A stretch of 56,356 bases of DNA. Origin: an uncultured Opitutia bacterium. Its GTDB lineage: Bacteria; Verrucomicrobiota; Verrucomicrobiia; Opitutales; CAJWYM01. The position numbers and the translations under genes are program-made. The stretch covers positions 1-56,356 of the forward strand of contig CAJWYM010000012.1 of NCBI GenBank assembly GCA_913049555.1, given 5' to 3'. The stretch's first letter is position 1. Each line of letters begins with the position of its first letter. The notes beneath the pieces are model-generated. The model was given only the letters and a program-made list of their open reading frames with translations. It did no database searches and was not told the origin of the DNA. Positions 11,537-22,058 of this stretch are shown here, one piece after another.

Positions 11537-12949
11537 TCAACCCTTGATCGCAACGGTTTTACTTTTAAGAAGACTGAAGCGGCCTTTAAAGTCTCGTGCA
11601 AAGCCTTTCCAAACGCGTTGGTCCTCTTTAAATTGGTCTTTATCTTTATCCATTGCTTGTTTGATTTCATCATCTCCCATAAAAACAATGAGGTTCATAG
11701 AATATTTTTTCCTAGAAGCGCCCGTTCCGTAATTTTCATCTATCACACTTCTAAGGTAAGCTTGAACCTCTTTCTTTTCATAGAAAAACTTGTAATTACC
11801 AGGGGTATACATTTCCGGAGAATCTCCCTCGGGGCCTTCGGGCTGATCTTTGAAGTTTTTTTGAGCCCACTTATAATAATCTGTTCCTAATTGCCTGTTG
11901 CCTCCAGACTTGACACGCTTTTCTTGGTAAGCTTTGAAGGCAAGTTGAGCATCCCGAGTCCATTGAGCAATTTCTTTCGCATACTCTCTTAATTTGGCAC
12001 GATCCCAACCAGCCTTCTCATAAGCTTTCTTCGCTTTGTCTCTTTCCTTTTTGAGCCAATCAAGCTCCTTCTTATCCGGAGATCTTCGGACATTTTCATA
12101 AAGATCGGTCCAAGAACCTGATATGATAAAGGCCGCATCAGCCTTCTGCTCCATGGCCACCTGAGTGATCTGTAAGCTGTGATTCATTGTAGACCTTGGC
12201 ATTTTCTTTGTGAGTCTGTAATTACCATTGTTGTCGATACCTACATTGTCCGCATCCCTATTAATAGTCTTCACCCAAGAAGCAAATTCACTCTTTGCTG
12301 AGGGGGTAGCAGCCTGTAGACCTTGTTTAAAGAAAAGGAATTGCACAGTCGGTCCAGCTTTATCAAAAAAACCAACATTGAAAACAATTGAAGGAGGGAG
12401 TCCATTGATTAATTTAGTAATCTCATCACGAATCGCATTGTAAGCTTTGAGTCCCCCTTTGATGTCAGTCATCGTTCTATCTGTGCAATCAACCAGAAAT
12501 AAGAAGCGCTCTCCTGAGGCTTTTACTTTAAAGAGTGAAACTGCTTTGGCTCCCATACCAAGTCCACCTCCACCAAGAGCAGAACCTCTACCAATTCCTT
12601 TGCCGATACCAGCAACCCCGATCTTGGTATTTATTTGAGGCAAAGCGATATTGATTTTGGGGGTATTTAAATTATTGATCGCCTTTACTTGAATTCTCTT
12701 TTTAGGCTTCGAGCTTACACTTTTTTTTTGCTGTTGGGCCATTGCCACAGAATACTCAATTTTCTTGGGCACCATTTTTTCAGTTGGAGGAGGGGGAGCA
12801 AACTCTGGTTCCGGAGGAGCCATAGAGGTGGAGACAATCCATCCACCTATCAATACTGCTGCTACAACATGTAAGATTGCACTGATCACAATTACATTGA
12901 GTAACATTGGATTTAGTTTTCGGGTCTTTTTCTTAAATTGAGAAATCAT
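11537..12949 (-). CDS. TonB-like membrane anchor with VWA-like periplasmic domain, partner of ExbBD
   Basis: The 470-residue protein has one N-terminal transmembrane helix (about residues 15-40). A proline-rich segment follows (PPEPEFAPPPPTEK near residues 45-58), then a lysine-rich linker and a glycine-rich segment (near residues 112-135). This front half resembles TonB. The C-terminal part (about 145-460) resembles a von Willebrand A-type domain: SGERFLFLVDCTDRTM is at the MIDAS position, but it reads D-C-T-D-R, not the canonical DxSxS. The usual TonB C-terminal domain is not visible. It is the last gene of a cluster after two ExbD proteins (13004-13845), so I infer it is the energised partner of this ExbBD complex. 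Its ligand is unknown. Confidence 0.6.
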   Translation of the reverse strand: MISQFKKKTRKLNPMLLNVIVISAILHVVAAVLIGGWIVSTSMAPPEPEFAPPPPTEKMVPKKIEYSVAMAQQQKKSVSSKPKKRIQVKAINNLNTPKINIALPQINTKIGVAGIGKGIGRGSALGGGGLGMGAKAVSLFKVKASGERFLFLVDCTDRTMTDIKGGLKAYNAIRDEITKLINGLPPSIVFNVGFFDKAGPTVQFLFFKQGLQAATPSAKSEFASWVKTINRDADNVGIDNNGNYRLTKKMPRSTMNHSLQITQVAMEQKADAAFIISGSWTDLYENVRRSPDKKELDWLKKERDKAKKAYEKAGWDRAKLREYAKEIAQWTRDAQLAFKAYQEKRVKSGGNRQLGTDYYKWAQKNFKDQPEGPEGDSPEMYTPGNYKFFYEKKEVQAYLRSVIDENYGTGASRKKYSMNLIVFMGDDEIKQAMDKDKDQFKEDQRVWKGFARDFKGRFSLLKSKTVAIKG

Positions 12950-13003
12950 GAGTAATTACATTATAAATTAAAATAGTTTATTATCAAATTATAGTTTGTT
13001 GAA

Positions 13004-13429
13004 TCAACCGCCGAAAGAAATTGATTTAATTTTAGCCCTTGCACAAGCATTCAATACGTCTATGGATCTTTGATGGGGAGAATACTGATCCGCCTGTATG
13101 GTAACTACCGTCTTAGTTTGAGTCCTATCAGCTGAAACCTTCAATCGAGCTAGCGTAGAGGCAAGGCTTGGCATATCTCTTGAGTAGGGGTTATCCATTG
13201 GAGCTCCATTTAAAAGAACGTTCCCATTTGGCAATATTTGAACGATATGCTCACTGGGAAGATCCAAATTCTTAGAGGGAGGAGCATCTGCCGGCAAAGT
13301 AATTCCAAGATCCGACTCCTGCTGCAAAGGTAAAAACATAAAATATACAAGGAGTAAAAATACAACATCAATCATGGATGTCATATCATAATGGTCTTCT
13401 CCCTCGAGTGCTTCATTTTTCTTAGCCAT
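13004..13429 (-). CDS. ExbD/TolR-family proton-channel subunit (copy 2)
   Basis: The 141-residue protein has one transmembrane helix with the protonatable aspartate in SMIDVVFLLLVYFMF (near residue 21). The periplasmic domain after it is typical of ExbD/TolR. These proteins form, with ExbB, a proton channel that energises a TonB/TolA-like partner. The upstream ExbD copy ends only 8 bp before this start, so the two are co-transcribed. The two copies are only distantly alike, which fits a heteromeric or specialised complex. Confidence 0.88.
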   Translation of the reverse strand: MAKKNEALEGEDHYDMTSMIDVVFLLLVYFMFLPLQQESDLGITLPADAPPSKNLDLPSEHIVQILPNGNVLLNGAPMDNPYSRDMPSLASTLARLKVSADRTQTKTVVTIQADQYSPHQRSIDVLNACARAKIKSISFGG

Positions 13430-13437
13430 GAGATTCC

Positions 13438-13845
13438 TTAACCTTTCCTATTGGCGAAAATTACCTTGAAAACTCCCGCTTGAGCGATTGCATCCATCAC
13501 TTGTCTTATATGACGATGTTCCGTTGCCATATCTCCTCTCAGGAAAACTTCAAATCCTTTAATCCTTGAATTCTTGTCTAGTAATGTAGGTATGATATCT
13601 GTGGGGCTTTGCATTTTCTTGGCTCCTAAATAAACATCTCCAGAACTCGTGACTGTAAGATATTGTCTATTTTTAGCCAATTCGGGAACAATAGACTGAT
13701 CTGAAAAAGGGAGGTCAATTTCTACAGATTCATCGGAAACCATACTCGCAACCGTCATAAAAAAAGCTATCAATAGAAATACAATATCGATCATGGGTGT
13801 CATATCAAATGCACCGTCATCTTGAGGAGGTTGTTCCACCTTCAT
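13438..13845 (-). CDS. ExbD/TolR-family proton-channel subunit (copy 1)
   Basis: The 135-residue protein has the family layout: a short cytoplasmic tail, a transmembrane helix with the key aspartate (DMTPMIDIVFLLIAFFM) and a periplasmic domain. Upstream of the ATG is an AAGGAG Shine-Dalgarno motif about 6 to 7 nt away, one of the few clear ribosome binding sites in the window. ExbB ends 42 bp upstream. Confidence 0.9.
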   Translation of the reverse strand: MKVEQPPQDDGAFDMTPMIDIVFLLIAFFMTVASMVSDESVEIDLPFSDQSIVPELAKNRQYLTVTSSGDVYLGAKKMQSPTDIIPTLLDKNSRIKGFEVFLRGDMATEHRHIRQVMDAIAQAGVFKVIFANRKG

Positions 13846-13887
13846 CGTCTTCTCCTTTATTTTTTATTAAAAATAAGAGCTTACCGA

Positions 13888-14700
13888 TTACTCCTCGGTT
13901 TCCTCTTCTACGTATTCTTCCTCTAAATCCTGAGCAGCTTCATCCTCTCCTTCAGCATAAGCTTCACCCCCTGTTCTTACAGAGTTAACAAAGATAAAGA
14001 GAATGTCTCCAACCTGTTGAGATACTTTTGCGACAATTGCTCCGTATTTGTTCTTAAAGAAAAAGTAGAAAAACATCGCTGGAATACCGACAATCATACC
14101 ACTTGCGGTTGTGATGAGTGCTTCTGAGATATTCCCAGCGAGCAATTTTGGATCTCCAGTTCCTTGAGCAGCAATTACATTGAAAGCTTTTACCATACCA
14201 GAAACAGTTCCTAATAGTCCTACCATAGGAGCTAAAGTAGCAATGACATTTAAATAATTAATCAATACAAAAGGAGCTGCCATTTCTTGACCAGAGGTTT
14301 CCTCCATCGCTTTTTCTATAGATTCTGGGTCTAACTCATCAGTAACTCGATTTAAACCAGCACCTACAATGTTAGTGACCGCACAATTATTCTGTGAACA
14401 AACTTCTATTGCGCTTGGAACATCCAATCTTTTTAAAGAGTCCTTAACCTGCTCTTGAAGATCCGGGCGTAGAAATTGTTTCGGTCTGATGGCAAGAAAA
14501 TTGTATATAATGAATCCGACCATAGCCATTGACATTAACGTAAGGGGATACATAGCCCATCCACCTGTAACATACATATCAATGAGAGATTTACTCTCCA
14601 CTTCGGTCACCTGCTCTGCGGAATCCTGAGCATAGATGAATAATGGTGCGAGAAATGCCATAATTATAGACAACAGAGGCAATTTATAGTTTCTGAACAT
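13888..14700 (-). CDS. ExbB/TolQ/MotA-family proton-channel subunit
   Basis: From the ATG chosen here the protein has 270 residues: a signal-like N-terminus (about residues 8-24) and then three transmembrane segments. The last two carry the MotA/TolQ/ExbB signature (LAPMVGLLGTVSGMVKAF, then ALITTASGMIVGIPAMFFYF). The C-terminus is strongly acidic. The frame extends 19 codons upstream to 14757, but that overlaps the preceding TPR gene, so I chose the internal ATG that gives a good signal peptide. With ExbD it should form an inner-membrane proton channel. Confidence 0.88.
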   Translation of the reverse strand: MFRNYKLPLLSIIMAFLAPLFIYAQDSAEQVTEVESKSLIDMYVTGGWAMYPLTLMSMAMVGFIIYNFLAIRPKQFLRPDLQEQVKDSLKRLDVPSAIEVCSQNNCAVTNIVGAGLNRVTDELDPESIEKAMEETSGQEMAAPFVLINYLNVIATLAPMVGLLGTVSGMVKAFNVIAAQGTGDPKLLAGNISEALITTASGMIVGIPAMFFYFFFKNKYGAIVAKVSQQVGDILFIFVNSVRTGGEAYAEGEDEAAQDLEEEYVEEETEE

Positions 14701-14735
14701 AGATTTGTAGTTTAGTTTTCGTTTGATTTTGAAAG

Positions 14736-15806
14736 TTATAAGGGTTTGGAAGACCACACTGAATTTGGATAAAAAAGCTTAATTTCATCAATAATGCTTT
14801 TAGCAACCTCTTTTTGATCAAGATTGAAATAGCACAATGCACTTTGAAATAACAATTCAGGCATCCATAAAAATCCACGATCTGAAGAAACGACCCCTTG
14901 TGAAATCAAATCCATGGCTGCTCGATAATCCCTACTCTTAATGGAACTTAAAGCCTGAACAAGTTGGTACAAAGAAAAGTCAGGGTTGTTATTATCCAAA
15001 GGATCCAACTTTTCTAAATAATAAGTAGATCCATTCATATCCCCTGTTTTAACCTTACAGTATGCAATCCACAAAATTACTTGTTCATAAAGATCACTCT
15101 CGCGAAATCTTTGAGCTCGCTCGTACAAACCAAGAGCACTGGTATATTCCTCTACCAATATAAACAAACCTGCAGCATGGATAACATTGTCTAAATACTG
15201 GGTCTCAGAGGAACTCAAAGGAATTCTTTTGATCAATTTTAGAGCTTTTTCGTATTCCTTGAGTTGAATCAAACTTGCGGTCACATCGAAGATTTTTTCG
15301 ACAAACAAATCGTCTACTTTCTTAATGTCAAATTCTTCATAAATCTCATAAATTTCATTTGCAGCACCTATCTCAAGCAGTGAATCAATAAAAATTCTAA
15401 GAGGCTTGTGAATATCAATTTTACTATTGGAAATATTCGCAAACTTTATTAAAGGGTAAGCGGATTCTCGAAAAATCTCAACTCCTTCGGCAAACTTTCG
15501 ATCTGCTAATAAAGCAATCGCTTGGTTGTATAAGTCCTTCTGTATATATTTTAATGATTCTGAGCTGGAAACGGGTAAGAGAATTTCCATCTCCTCCATT
15601 CCTTTTTGTGACATTACAAAATTCCGACCATCGAAATCATGGAGGATATATTCTTTTTGGCTGACTCCCTTGCCCTGAGTGACATGGATGGGTAAATTTC
15701 CAAATTCATCAAGGTATTTATTTGCAAAGAGAGAAGCTGCAATGGTGAAAGAACCTAAGAGCAAATAGAAGTGAAATTTAAGAAAAGATAGATTTGAAGT
15801 ATTCAT
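14736..15806 (-). CDS. Exported TPR-like protein of the ExbBD cluster
   Basis: The 356-residue protein starts with a signal peptide (about residues 10-27, ending at a plausible SLFA cleavage site). The remainder is all-helical with repeated segments of the 34-residue TPR type, such as KYIQKDLYNQAIALLADRKF and later AMDLISQ. It likely folds as a periplasmic scaffold. It sits between the 1001-residue TPR protein and ExbB with no gaps of note, so it is part of the same operon. No specific function is recognisable. Confidence 0.6.
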   Translation of the reverse strand: MNTSNLSFLKFHFYLLLGSFTIAASLFANKYLDEFGNLPIHVTQGKGVSQKEYILHDFDGRNFVMSQKGMEEMEILLPVSSSESLKYIQKDLYNQAIALLADRKFAEGVEIFRESAYPLIKFANISNSKIDIHKPLRIFIDSLLEIGAANEIYEIYEEFDIKKVDDLFVEKIFDVTASLIQLKEYEKALKLIKRIPLSSSETQYLDNVIHAAGLFILVEEYTSALGLYERAQRFRESDLYEQVILWIAYCKVKTGDMNGSTYYLEKLDPLDNNNPDFSLYQLVQALSSIKSRDYRAAMDLISQGVVSSDRGFLWMPELLFQSALCYFNLDQKEVAKSIIDEIKLFYPNSVWSSKPL

Positions 15807-15815
15807 GAAATCTTT

Positions 15816-18800
15816 TTACAGGGTATTATTGAGTTCTTGAGCCTCCAAGAAGTAAGGGTTTTCTTTGTAAGAATCCTTAGCCAAACACTCTTTCAAGGTC
15901 TTTTTGGCATCTGCATTATTTCCCATTTTGGTCAAGGTTCGGGCATCCATCATGTATGCTTGTATCGCCCAATCAGCGAAATAAGCATGTCCAACAAAAA
16001 CTCTCTCAAAGAATCCGTGCGCCTCATTGTATTTTTGTTCATCAAAGTAAGAGAGTCCTAAATGATACAAAGCTTGGGCCTGTAAAGTTCCAGTCCTCCA
16101 AGAAGGGGTCTTCAGAATGGATTGATATTTTTCGCGCGCATTCTCGAACTGTCCTTGTTCTCGCATAATATCCCCCATTTTAATAACTAAGAGAGGAACT
16201 TGTTCATTGTCATAAAACTGTAAGGATGCTTTCTCATAATAATTCATTGCAGAATTGTAATTCTTATTTTTCTGAGCTAATTCACCCATTGAAATCAAAG
16301 CATCTAAAACATAGGAAGACTCGGGAAATTCGTCGATCACTTTAGAATTTGCATTTTTAGCAAGTTCTGGATCTGAAGACTTCAGTTTACTTGCAATCCA
16401 AACCAATAGTTTGGGACTTGCAAATTGAAAATCATCCTCTGAAAACACTTTAGACTTGTTTACAAAAATACCCCTTTCCTCAAGCGCCATCTGTAATCTA
16501 AAAGCCAAAGTATATTGCCCTGAATTGTTCGCCTTTTTAAAGGCTGGTTGAAATAAATCCTCGGGAGTTGTTTTTGGAAAAACTGCGTATTGGGTCTTGT
16601 AAGATTTAAGAGTCGATTTAAGAGGGTCAATAATGGTTTCCATGGATTCAAAATCCTTGTCGTTTCTAAACCGCTGTTCCACCTTTCGATCTATGAAACT
16701 ATTTTCCACAAAATATTCATACAGATATCCTTTGTCTTTAATAAAACGCTCACAAAAGTTACTATCTTTCAAACATTCCTCTAAAAATTGAATGGTCTTT
16801 TCAAGATGATTTCTAGTCGTATAGTATTTGCTTACAAATACATCCAGTAATTTATCAACTCCCTTGCTATCTGGGTAATTGCCATAATTAATAATACCCT
16901 CCATATAGTCTTTCTGCATTTCTCCAGGTTTGCCCATCAACTCTTTAGCTCGCCCCATCTCGTAAATAGCATCTGTAAAAGAGGGACTTTCAGGATACTG
17001 ATCTAGAAAATCTTTATATACCCCAGCCATTTCCTGATACATCTTATTTTTAAAAAATAATTTACCTCTCTCAAAAAAAGAGTTCTTTATATAATCTTCA
17101 CTATCCGCATATAAACTCACCTCAGAATAATGCTCGACCGCTTTATCAATTTCTCCTCTAGATCCGTAAATTTGACCAAGAAAGTACTCACACTCACCCC
17201 TTAAACTTCCAGTATTGTATTTGTCGATGAAGTTTTTGAACGCCTCTTCACCTCCATCGACATCTCCAGACCCATAGATGGAGACCGCATATCTGTACAA
17301 TCCATCCTCATTGTAGGTGGAAAAAGGATATTTATCCACTAGAGGACCAAAAAACTCTTTTGCTCTATTGAAGTTGCCTTGATAAATAGAAGCCAATCCA
17401 ACCCAGTAATAACAACCGTCCAGCCAAGGGGCTTTTGGATAACTATTAATAAATTGTTTGAATTTTGAGATGAGCGTATCAATTTCGTTCAGTTGCAACC
17501 AAGTATTTCCCATCAAATAAATAACAACCCCCCCATCTTGATTTTCCGAAAATTGCTCTACGAATTCGTTGCCCAATTCGAAAAAGCGGTCATAGTCTCC
17601 CTGATCTTGGTAAACCTGCATCATCATCATAGCTACATCTTTTCTGAAAGCTTGATAAGATGGGTTTGCTAAATATTCACGCCCAATATCCATCGCCAAT
17701 TCAGGTTTTCCAATTTGATTGGCTCCATGAATCGTTGCAAAGATAAACTCTTCAATATTTTCATGGTCTTTGTAATCGTTTATAATTTTGTTGTGGGAAT
17801 AATAAGCTTCCCAAATTCGACCCGTATCAAAATAAACCCTAGCTTTTAAAATATCTAGATCAGGACCGTAGCTTTCCACCTTTCTGAGGGATTCCATCAA
17901 TTGTTGAGTGTTGAAAATATCGAGCTCTAACTCTTCGATCATTTCTTGTCTCTTTTTTCGTTTAAAAAAAGAGAGCTTACTTTTTAAGGAGCGAATGCGC
18001 TTCTCATTGTAAGCAATCATCTCGTCCGGAGTTAAGGTTAAAGAAAAGAATAAAGAGGCTTGGTTGTACTTACCGGAAGCTCTCATTTGATTGCCTGCTT
18101 TTAGTAGAGCAACATTCAAACCTAGGGAGTAGCGTGAAGGAGATTCTTTCAACAAGGTGGGCAACAAAGCAATGGTTTTATCAACCTGATTTTTCTTTAA
18201 ATACAGTTCCACTAAAGCAGAAGCAGCCCTGCCTTTTTCTTCCTCTTTTTGGGTTTCATTCAATAATTTACGAAACCAAGATTCACCATTGTCCCAGTCT
18301 TGAAGAATGTAATAAGCTTCCACTATTTTTTCTAAAGTAGCCTGATACACTTCCTCGCTGTATCGATAAGGTCTATTGCGTTTATTAATCAACTCTTTAA
18401 GAGGAAGGATCGCATTTTTAAAATCCCCCAAAACTCGATAACAATCAGCCCTAGAGGATAATACATTTACATAGCGTTGCTCACTCTTGAATTCTTTCTC
18501 ATAGAACCCAAAATATTTCAAAGCTTCTCTTAATTCTGAAGGTTGAGTAGTTTGGGAGTGCTTCATCATGTGTCCCAAAGCAACAAAATAAAACAATGGC
18601 TCTAATGGTTTTCTTTTAGTAGCATCCCCTAATGCCTCTGTTCTTTTAATCATTTCCTTAAGATAAGGAAGAGCAGTCGGAAAATCACCAGATTCAATAA
18701 AAGATTCTGTTTGAGCCTTTAAATCAGAAAACGCTAAACTGTTGGGGTCTGATTTTAATGAAGAAGTTAATAATAAAAATAAACAAAAAGTTATTAAAAG

Positions 18801-18821
18801 TGTATTTTTAACAGGAACCAT
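15816..18821 (-). CDS. Large exported tetratricopeptide-repeat protein of the ExbBD cluster
   Basis: The 1001-residue protein has an N-terminal signal peptide (about residues 6-24). Almost the whole remainder is made of helical repeats of TPR character, with recurrent aromatic and alanine positions (AREKYQSIL, AKEFFGPLVDKYP, AVEHYSEVS). It is large for a TPR protein. It resembles the YbgF/CpoB-like scaffold repeats found beside Tol-Pal systems, but I cannot name a homolog. It is the first gene of the cluster, ahead of the second TPR protein and ExbB. The start is an ATG with no Shine-Dalgarno motif. Confidence 0.65.
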   Translation of the reverse strand: MVPVKNTLLITFCLFLLLTSSLKSDPNSLAFSDLKAQTESFIESGDFPTALPYLKEMIKRTEALGDATKRKPLEPLFYFVALGHMMKHSQTTQPSELREALKYFGFYEKEFKSEQRYVNVLSSRADCYRVLGDFKNAILPLKELINKRNRPYRYSEEVYQATLEKIVEAYYILQDWDNGESWFRKLLNETQKEEEKGRAASALVELYLKKNQVDKTIALLPTLLKESPSRYSLGLNVALLKAGNQMRASGKYNQASLFFSLTLTPDEMIAYNEKRIRSLKSKLSFFKRKKRQEMIEELELDIFNTQQLMESLRKVESYGPDLDILKARVYFDTGRIWEAYYSHNKIINDYKDHENIEEFIFATIHGANQIGKPELAMDIGREYLANPSYQAFRKDVAMMMMQVYQDQGDYDRFFELGNEFVEQFSENQDGGVVIYLMGNTWLQLNEIDTLISKFKQFINSYPKAPWLDGCYYWVGLASIYQGNFNRAKEFFGPLVDKYPFSTYNEDGLYRYAVSIYGSGDVDGGEEAFKNFIDKYNTGSLRGECEYFLGQIYGSRGEIDKAVEHYSEVSLYADSEDYIKNSFFERGKLFFKNKMYQEMAGVYKDFLDQYPESPSFTDAIYEMGRAKELMGKPGEMQKDYMEGIINYGNYPDSKGVDKLLDVFVSKYYTTRNHLEKTIQFLEECLKDSNFCERFIKDKGYLYEYFVENSFIDRKVEQRFRNDKDFESMETIIDPLKSTLKSYKTQYAVFPKTTPEDLFQPAFKKANNSGQYTLAFRLQMALEERGIFVNKSKVFSEDDFQFASPKLLVWIASKLKSSDPELAKNANSKVIDEFPESSYVLDALISMGELAQKNKNYNSAMNYYEKASLQFYDNEQVPLLVIKMGDIMREQGQFENAREKYQSILKTPSWRTGTLQAQALYHLGLSYFDEQKYNEAHGFFERVFVGHAYFADWAIQAYMMDARTLTKMGNNADAKKTLKECLAKDSYKENPYFLEAQELNNTL

Positions 18822-19278: not shown

Positions 19279-20454
19279 TTAGGACCAAATTGTCATGGAT
19301 TCTAAATCTTCTAGTATCGACTCACAATCATCCAAATCATTATGACACCGGTCTAACCAAGCCTCTCCCCAAAAAAGATTACAACTTGTCTGAGCTCTTA
19401 GTAGCCTCCAATATGCATCTTCAGTCCTGTCAGGCATTTCTTTTGAAATTTGACTCGCGATCGCATGGTATCGATCACTGACCTTCTGAATCCGTTCAAT
19501 TGCGTCAACCTGAGCCTTAGATCCAGTCCACTGAACAAAACCACTTCCATGGTGCCACCCTGTGTTCCAAGCCCCAGGTGCCACCCTTACTTCTTTTCCA
19601 ACCCCATGCTCTTCAATATACTCATGAATAAAACAAGGCCGAATTGGAGTATGCCCAGATTTAACTTCTTCCAAAAAAGGGAGGTAAAATGCATTCCAGA
19701 AATTCCCTTTATTATCAGTATTACGGAACCACCCGCCATTGTCACCATCAGTTGCAGTCATCACCAAGGGTTCAAAATCGCACCATTTTGTCCTTTCTTG
19801 CAATTCATGGTTGAACCAATCAAAACTCATTCCTGATTCTTGAGCATTTGAAACCTCCCGATCACGAACGATTACAATAATCTCCTCCCCCCCATATTTG
19901 GCAATGTGCGGTTGATAACGAATTTCTTGCCAGGTCAAATTTCCTTTGGGAATAATGTGACGGCTATCCACCATCACAAATTGATAACCCATTTTTTTTA
20001 TAAGAGGAATCAGTTCCATGCAAAAACCCATCTCAGAGGGCCAAAAACCTTGGAAATTATTACGATGAAATAAATGTCCTGCAATTTCTAACCAACGGGA
20101 AAGGTGAGCCTCCCGATCCGCCTTTGGAATCAGAGCCAATACAGGATGGTAATATCCCATTCCTAGGATATTTATAATTTTTTCATTTTGATAATGCCAG
20201 AGCAAGTCCCCTAATTTAACAGTCCCATAAACTTTCTCTTGAAAGTTAGGGCTAGCAATTGTCTCTAGTAGACTACCAGATAGTGTTAAATGAACACGAG
20301 CAATATCTTCATAATTCCACAACATCCGAGGAATTCGATCCAATGCCCACAAAATTTCCTTCGCTTCCCATTCTTCGTTGTCCCACAAATAGTTGAGATT
20401 GCCCGGAGGTTGATGCAGATTTAATACTAAAGCGTGATGAATCGTTCGAGCCAT
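19279..20454 (-). CDS. Glycoside hydrolase family 57 protein
   Basis: The 391-residue protein has the GH57 fold start (LNLHQPPG, residues 11-18). The nucleophile motif is WPSEMGF (E141). An acidic motif near TATDGDNGGWF (D236 or D238) is the candidate acid/base. GH57 enzymes hydrolyse or transglycosylate alpha-glucans such as glycogen and starch; the exact reaction (amylase, branching enzyme, 4-alpha-glucanotransferase) is not readable here. No signal peptide is seen, so it is cytoplasmic. It follows a second GH57 gene 134 bp upstream on the same strand. Confidence 0.8.
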   Translation of the reverse strand: MARTIHHALVLNLHQPPGNLNYLWDNEEWEAKEILWALDRIPRMLWNYEDIARVHLTLSGSLLETIASPNFQEKVYGTVKLGDLLWHYQNEKIINILGMGYYHPVLALIPKADREAHLSRWLEIAGHLFHRNNFQGFWPSEMGFCMELIPLIKKMGYQFVMVDSRHIIPKGNLTWQEIRYQPHIAKYGGEEIIVIVRDREVSNAQESGMSFDWFNHELQERTKWCDFEPLVMTATDGDNGGWFRNTDNKGNFWNAFYLPFLEEVKSGHTPIRPCFIHEYIEEHGVGKEVRVAPGAWNTGWHHGSGFVQWTGSKAQVDAIERIQKVSDRYHAIASQISKEMPDRTEDAYWRLLRAQTSCNLFWGEAWLDRCHNDLDDCESILEDLESMTIWS

Positions 20455-20525
20455 AATTATTTTTAGGTATTAGAAGCAATTATATACACTGTAGTAATAA
20501 GTTGGTGGATCTCAAATTTATTGTA

Positions 20526-20545
20526 CTTTAATATCGTTATTAAAG
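20526..20545 (-). repeat. Inverted repeat between the two GH57 genes
   Basis: Exact 8-bp arms (CTTTAATA and TATTAAAG) flank a 4-nt loop. It could be a weak attenuation or termination hairpin for the upstream GH57 gene. No T-run follows on the coding strand. Confidence 0.3.
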
Positions 20546-20588
20546 GACTGAAGAAAATTGTAAGTAACTTTTTTAAAATCCATGAAAT

Positions 20589-22058
20589 TTAAAAATCGTT
20601 TTCAACAATCGCTTCTGCTCTACGACAAATCTCTTTCCCGTAGTCGGTCCAAAGCCCTTGACCCCAATACCTGTAGCAGGAGGTTTGAGAACTCATTAGA
20701 TAAAACAAGGCTTTGTTGAAATTTGGATGCGTGGTTGGAACCTTTTGCTTGAGAACTTTCTGATAGAAAGATGCACTTGCCTGCTCCATAGGCACTAATA
20801 CATTGTCATACCCGTTCACCCATGAAATGTCATCCGTCCAAGAACCGCCATCCATATGAAAGTTCGAATCCTGTTCTTTAAGCTCTTTTATTGTTTTTTC
20901 CAGTTTTTCTGGACCCTCTCCAGCTTCGAAAATATCCCAGATCTGCTTTTGTTTGACAGGTTGAACCGTTTGAAAATCGTCTTCAGTAATTCCTCTGGAA
21001 CTCAAAAATTCCAAGTATTCGGTAGCGTTCATTAAAGGTGTCTGGGTGCCTGTGCAATGGGATGCGACTTCGTTGAACTTAGATGGGAATTCATTCATCA
21101 TCACCCCTCCGTTTTCACCATCGGCAATTTGGGTAACTAGTGGAGGCACTGATTTTCCTGATAAATCCCAACGATTTAAACTTTTAGCTTCGTACCAAGG
21201 TTGCATTTGAGCTACCAATTTTGTGTCCGATCCCTGAGTTTTAACGATAGCAATTATGCTTACTGTATCCCCTTTCGAATTCTTACATTCTAAACGATGT
21301 GGCAAATGAGACTGGTGAGGATGGTGACCGGTGCTAGCTATTTCAATTGTATGCTCTTGAACTAAAACCCAATCATAGCCGCAGTCTTTAAGGGATTTGA
21401 CATACTCATAAGAAATATCAGGGTGATTAGGCAAAGCCATTTCTGATGGAGAAAAACCTCGGACTCGACTCAGTGCCTCCATTCCAAAAATCCCAGCAAA
21501 ATGTTGTTGCCAAGCCTGAATCTGCAATTTGAAATCTTGAGTAGGAGTTGAAGGCGCTACAGCATGCCCCCAAGGGCACCCAAGCCACTCGATTTTTGAC
21601 CTATATTTAGAGTCACAGGTTATATTTTTCAAAGTATCAATCACATCATGCAAACCCATTTTTCTCAATCCATGCAAAAGAACACCGCTATATTCTAACA
21701 TCACCCGGGGACTTTTTCCTTCATTGACCAAATTTGGGATAAATTCTCCAATTCTCTTGTAACACCAATGGAATCCAGGGGCATTGTGATTGTCTCCTAT
21801 ATGTTGGTTGTCCATCATATACTGCAGATTGGAGATCATATCTGCAGTCTCTAAATCCTCACCTCCAGCGGGAATCAATGGCTGTTGCATGTGCAAGGCA
21901 ATTGCAGCAGCACTGTGAATACTGTCAAAATTGATGTCAGAATCATTCAGGTAAACTGGAGATTTTTTTGACTCCTTGAGCGCGCTTAAGATTTCATCTT
22001 CGAAACCGGAAACTGTGGGATAATCGCCAGTGTATTCAGGGATTTGAGTATTTATCAT
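20589..22058 (-). CDS. Glycoside hydrolase family 57 protein (second copy, longer)
   Basis: The 489-residue protein carries the GH57 motifs in a more divergent form: the first as ALHMQQPLIP (residues 54-63), the nucleophile motif as GFSPSEMALP (E206), and an acidic motif IADGENGG (D313, E315). No signal peptide is visible. Its substrate is presumably an alpha-glucan, but that is inferred from the family. It is transcribed first, with the 391-residue GH57 behind it; the two are not close duplicates of each other. Confidence 0.75.
   Translation of the reverse strand: MINTQIPEYTGDYPTVSGFEDEILSALKESKKSPVYLNDSDINFDSIHSAAAIALHMQQPLIPAGGEDLETADMISNLQYMMDNQHIGDNHNAPGFHWCYKRIGEFIPNLVNEGKSPRVMLEYSGVLLHGLRKMGLHDVIDTLKNITCDSKYRSKIEWLGCPWGHAVAPSTPTQDFKLQIQAWQQHFAGIFGMEALSRVRGFSPSEMALPNHPDISYEYVKSLKDCGYDWVLVQEHTIEIASTGHHPHQSHLPHRLECKNSKGDTVSIIAIVKTQGSDTKLVAQMQPWYEAKSLNRWDLSGKSVPPLVTQIADGENGGVMMNEFPSKFNEVASHCTGTQTPLMNATEYLEFLSSRGITEDDFQTVQPVKQKQIWDIFEAGEGPEKLEKTIKELKEQDSNFHMDGGSWTDDISWVNGYDNVLVPMEQASASFYQKVLKQKVPTTHPNFNKALFYLMSSQTSCYRYWGQGLWTDYGKEICRRAEAIVENDF

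Follow-up and report, generated by a model that had tools for sequence, protein, structure and literature searches.

The window analysed here, a stretch of 56,356 nucleotides from an uncultured Opitutia bacterium, carries a six-gene locus whose products resemble a proton-driven envelope motor, two exported repeat proteins and a TonB-like protein that lacks the TonB C-terminal domain. We specifically asked the following: (i) what the TonB-like protein carries at its C-terminus; (ii) whether the six genes form a conserved unit; and (iii) whether such a system is known. The operon is very probably a member of the 'vWA force transducer' kind predicted in PMC12204202, and a related clade was found in which the transducer and its TPR partners are encoded apart from the motor.

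Gene content and flanks of the operon

The sequence-only reading had described six adjacent same-strand genes encoding two TPR proteins, ExbB, two ExbD and a TonB-like protein, and this content was borne out by the ORF coordinates (minus strand, 18821-11537) and by Pfam. The first gene encodes TPR-L, an exported TPR protein of 1001 residues (15816..18821, minus strand; TPR_6, 85.8 bits), and is followed by that of TPR-S, of 356 residues (14736..15806, minus strand; TPR_19/TPR_6 marginally over cut-off), so that TPR was detected above the Pfam cut-offs in both proteins. Both N termini looked like export signals by eye, and the hydrophobic N-terminal segment of TPR-L alone passed the hydropathy cut-off. 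Adjacent TPR-L orthologues were found in every six-gene locus at 26-34% identity, and syntenic TPR-S orthologues were 20-30% identical; the range for the TPR proteins was thus 20-34%, the divergent locus L054 aside. TPR-L also scored 146 bits against TIGR02795 in NCBIfam (cut-off 90). Its identification as CpoB/YbgF was rejected: six generic repeats add up to this score, and the model for CpoB itself was missed, with 68 of 383 bits.

The motor subunits were assigned by Pfam above the cut-offs, in agreement with their first naming. ExbB, a proton channel subunit of the ExbB/TolQ type (13888..14700, minus strand; PF01618, 107 bits), has three channel helices and one signal-like N-terminal helix. 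Its start is probably the ATG at 14700 rather than the listed GTG at 14757; given the ATG start, the gene does not overlap that of TPR-S, and the intergenic gaps in the operon are about 8 to 55 bases. The two ExbD/TolR-type subunits are ExbD2 (13438..13845, minus strand; PF02472, 77 bits) and the divergent ExbD1 (13004..13429, minus strand; PF02472, 67 bits). The channel Asp was invariant in the orthologue alignments of both, as D20 in the transmembrane helix of ExbD2 and D21 in that of ExbD1. ExbD1 was the best conserved protein of the six (50-64% identity in all orthologues except L054), followed by ExbB (44-52% to most cluster orthologues, the divergent L054 set apart) and ExbD2 (37-43%, L054 aside). 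These values exceed those of the TPR proteins and of the transducer (25-31%, L054 aside), and the periplasmic parts therefore evolve faster than the conserved motor.

Downstream of the operon lie a UPF0102 gene and a glucose-6-phosphate dehydrogenase gene, and upstream, at 19279-22058, two adjacent genes resembling GH57-type glycoside hydrolases (the first by Pfam, the second by eye). No recurrent flanking genes able to hint at function were found beside the loci of relatives. The 3.1-Mb genome encodes twelve proteins of the MotA/ExbB/TolQ family, the operon ExbB included, and a single VWA transducer. Elsewhere in this genome, tandem ExbB-type genes of 497 and 205 residues are followed by ExbD (G000:C30:6929-9445, L060), a layout reminiscent of TtpC-ExbB2-ExbD2 in the TonB2 system of Vibrio.

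A TonB-like transducer with a VWA head

The last gene (11537..12949, minus strand) encodes a protein of 470 residues with syntenic orthologues. As had been proposed, its anchor is TonB-like: a single N-terminal transmembrane helix (residues about 14-42) precedes a Pro/Lys-rich linker (12554..12823, minus strand), disordered at residues 54-131 (pLDDT <50 in the AlphaFold2 model). The transducer alignment revealed in the linker a conserved EYKVRMxxQQKxSxRPxQ-like stretch, a candidate 'motor box'. Searched alone, the protein matched no Pfam or NCBIfam domain, the TonB C-terminal domain (PF03544) included, and neither the FHA nor the TonB_C domain of the GltG type was present; one of 20 relatives reached PF00092, weakly. 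Single-sequence folding gave a pLDDT of 38, and a model based on a 20-sequence alignment was used instead (mean pLDDT 71, core >90). In this model an alpha/beta domain extends from about residue 133 to the C-terminus. The top matches among solved structures were VWA domains (Z 13.8 to 11.3), led by an inter-alpha-inhibitor heavy chain (Z 13.8, rmsd 2.8 over 159 residues); inter-alpha-inhibitor heavy chains were also picked by a profile search with the transducer (E 0.002). The predicted VWA fold (residues 133-470; 11540..12553, minus strand) is split by an alpha-helical stretch of some 110 residues, inserted at about 282-392, which is mostly absent from L047. Thus the modelled C-terminal region is well supported as a VWA fold. 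The suggestion that a VWA-like domain replaces the TonB C-terminal domain was upheld by this structure prediction and by the DxSGS motif of relatives, and an ordinary TonB with a normal C-terminal domain was rejected.

At the MIDAS metal site, the window transducer reads DCTDR (12476..12490, minus strand) and DxSxS is absent. The strict motif was kept in half of the motor-linked relatives (22/44), with classical examples in L047 and L102 (DVSGS) and in L227 (DMSGS). Motif comparison suggests that canonical metal binding has probably been lost in the clade of the window transducer, and the grip of the window's VWA head would then probably be protein-protein and metal-independent.

A rival reading takes the operon for TonB-type uptake machinery whose transducer has an unusual head. 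ExbBD and a TonB-like anchor are present, and the Vibrio TonB2 system cannot do without its TPR partner TtpD2 (PMC6957404); however, the transducer lacks a TonB_C domain, no receptor gene adjoins the operon, and four genuine TonB_C proteins are encoded elsewhere in the genome, one of them beside its own ExbB/ExbD. We regard an uptake role as highly improbable. Given the four TonB_C proteins, the operon exists alongside ordinary TonB systems.

Within the transmembrane helix, Ser23-x3-His27 (12869..12883, minus strand) corresponds to the first two residues of SHLS, the motif by which TonB and TolA bind their motors according to PMC12204202. Among the 44 members with adjoining motor genes, His27 was kept in 42 (the exceptions being L245 and L249) and Ser23 in 34, and the next best helix column after His27 was Gly35 (35/44). 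The match to TonB and TolA is confined to this first half, and the Leu and Ser of the motif are not conserved; their positions, at +11/+15 in TonB numbering, are I34 and I38 in the window transducer. The comparison supports His27 as the putative motor contact, since Ser and His are both lost where the TPR-TPR-VWA unit stands apart from the motor genes, as described below. Stand-alone VWA paralogues located away from motor genes keep the His (L040, L042, L046 and others).

Distribution of the unit and its separation from the motor

The same six-gene order was found in nine genomes from five other families of the order (L039, L041, L043, L044, L045, L047, L048, L049 and L053), in further families of the phylum (L235, L236, L239, L243-L250 and L252) and on named Opitutia and Kiritimatiellales contigs (L100, L103 and L121). 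The check on neighbourhood conservation that the sequence-only reading had proposed was thus positive within the order and across the phylum, and the comparison of genomes established co-inheritance of the six genes as a unit. The transducer family was matched in 94 of 289 genomes of the Verrucomicrobiota sample. Named organisms were reached via ExbD1, because the transducer alignment lacked a sufficiently conserved stretch and no relative was found with the transducer as query against genome contigs. The nearest named ExbD1 relatives (61-63%) were Puniceicoccaceae, Opitutia and Verrucomicrobia MAGs, which places the window in Verrucomicrobiota and probably in Opitutia, and Kiritimatiellales-type homologues (L121 and L130) matched the transducer family profile at 220-224 bits.

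Several variant loci were observed. On Verrucomicrobiales-type contigs (L122-L125 and L136), ExbB-ExbD-ExbD is followed by a TPR protein of at least 1000 residues with no recognisable VWA transducer, and in L123 and L136 an exported protein of 320-346 residues comes after that TPR gene; these loci possibly combine the same motor with a different output. Some genomes already having the cluster contain a further, divergent copy of all its genes (L227 and L228), with shorter VWA proteins in which MIDAS is intact, two of them in tandem in L227. In families f46 and f39 (L240-L242 and L237), several VWA transducer paralogues are encoded per genome, many far from motor genes, and one of 791 residues contains two matching stretches.

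The distribution within the order also bears on whether the operon substitutes for Tol-Pal, with the VWA protein in the role of TolA in outer membrane-wall attachment and division. TolB_N was not matched in the own genome and gave one marginal match among the 52 relatives of the order, with positive controls in E. coli, Caulobacter and Bacteroides; by these profile searches the order seems to lack a canonical Tol-Pal system. TPR-L moreover resembles repeats of the CpoB/YbgF type in its TIGR02795 score. The generic repeats behind that score count against this role, as do the 11 other MotA/ExbB/TolQ proteins of the genome, which could serve instead. The VWA family was matched in just 26 of the 52 genomes, some matches being weak and about 15 strong, which is too patchy for a housekeeping function. 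A Tol-Pal substitute is accordingly an unlikely reading of the operon.

A different organisation was found in family f16, in which 17 of the 19 genomes searched had a VWA match. Here TPR-L, TPR-S and VWA form a three-gene unit in this order (L050-L052 and L196-L208), with ExbB/ExbD neither between nor adjoining. A cluster-type ExbB-ExbD2-ExbD1 was located at another locus in most f16 genomes (motor loci L209, L210 and L214-L226), and no TonB-like gene stood beside the relocated motor genes in the two loci inspected. In all 15 readable members, Ser23 is replaced by Val and His27 by Gln or Met. The tree placed f16 as a monophyletic clade (support 0.998) nested among His-bearing, motor-linked lineages, and the substitutions therefore count as one evolutionary event, not fifteen. 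For genus g181, only distant ExbB/ExbD were found in two genomes that are about 90% complete, and this genus may be without a cognate motor altogether.

One tentative explanation is that in f16 the unit left the motor operon, and that the former force transducer works without a motor or by a different link. A related idea, which we hold as tentatively, is that VWA and TPR together make up the functional core, for which the motor serves as an optional actuator and can be moved or lost. Three observations are consistent with such a core: f16 keeps the three genes together with no motor genes among them and with another residue in place of the helix His, g181 seemingly lacks a cognate motor, and motor-less VWA paralogues occur in several genomes. 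However, most f16 genomes retain motor genes elsewhere, and coupling in trans via other contacts is possible; the completeness of the g181 genomes, only about 90%, also weakens the point drawn from them.

Relation to known machines and proposed mechanism

The system had been put forward as possibly undescribed, and this part of the proposal did not stand: the arrangement and the idea of a vWA transducer were in print in 2025, an already described neighbourhood being what the sequence-only reading had itself named as refuting novelty. In its available text, PMC12204202 (Mol Biol Evol 2025) predicts 'vWA force transducers' in PVC bacteria, in a Tichowtungia family, with the transducer gene following a TPR gene, a tolQ and two heterologous tolR genes, and reports AF3 docking of the transducer helix by its His. 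Literature searches for such systems turned up only this paper. Four features of this kind were found in the window, namely the His of the transmembrane helix, a disordered and proline-rich linker (about 100 residues long in the kind as described), the C-terminal vWA and the gene order. Both share a TPR gene, a tolQ-like gene, two different tolR-like genes and then a transmembrane helix-linker-vWA protein with the motor-binding His. As far as the available text describes the kind, the window member differs in having two distinct TPR genes rather than one, a degenerate MIDAS and only the Ser-x3-His of SHLS. The operon is thus a fairly ordinary, good example of a kind already predicted. The separated f16 clade goes beyond the available text of the paper, which does not mention such a clade.

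The operon shares with TonB-ExbB-ExbD and TolA-TolQ-TolR the motor subunits, a Ser-x3-His helix and a flexible linker, and differs from them in its VWA head in place of the C-terminal domain, its two ExbD and the lack of an adjoining receptor, TolB or Pal. The nearest experimentally studied machines are AglRQS/Glt and Vibrio TonB2, whose transducer heads differ from that of the window. The Vibrio TonB2 operon TtpB-TtpC-ExbB2-ExbD2-TonB2-TtpD (PMC6957404) likewise joins ExbBD to a TonB-like and a TPR protein, but its transducer has the TonB C-terminal domain, and it contains TtpB and TtpC in addition and one ExbD. A further parallel in composition is AglRQS/Glt of Myxococcus (PMC3169522), in which one TolQ-like and two TolR-like subunits (AglR, AglQ and AglS) occur with TPR proteins and a single-helix, TonB-like transducer, GltG. 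This parallel raises a motor for surface motility or cell-surface transport as the function of the operon, and gliding is also suggested in the available text of PMC12204202. GltG, however, has FHA and TonB domains where the window transducer has VWA, no outer-membrane Glt homologue was seen adjoining the operon, the flanking genes are not conserved, and gliding is not established for these bacteria. Motility is therefore an improbable function.

We favour as the probable mechanism a motor-driven trans-periplasmic machine of the vWA force transducer kind. ExbB would be the proton channel, and the synteny of ExbD1 and ExbD2 suggests that they form its central dimer, which would hence be a heterodimer. 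The transducer helix would dock on ExbB via Ser23/His27, as in TonB and TolA, and the linker may bind the periplasmic domain of an ExbD. Proton flow would then pull or release the VWA head, which, as the gene order suggests, may act on a periplasmic TPR-L/TPR-S scaffold. The earlier proposal of a proton-driven complex with a VWA and TPR scaffold is the best reading by fold, motif and synteny; its force transmission and its TPR scaffold stand as predictions.

Proton-driven envelope motors beyond the E. coli-type Ton, Tol and flagellar systems mostly have no known output, and the operon provides a clean and conserved instance of such a motor. A transducer that in nature stands apart from the motor, and whose helix has lost Ser and His, offers a direct and testable link between the His and motor coupling. 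This separation also marks out the TPR-VWA pair for study before the other parts; if the tentative explanation of the f16 separation is true, VWA and TPR would be the working core, with the motor as an optional actuator.
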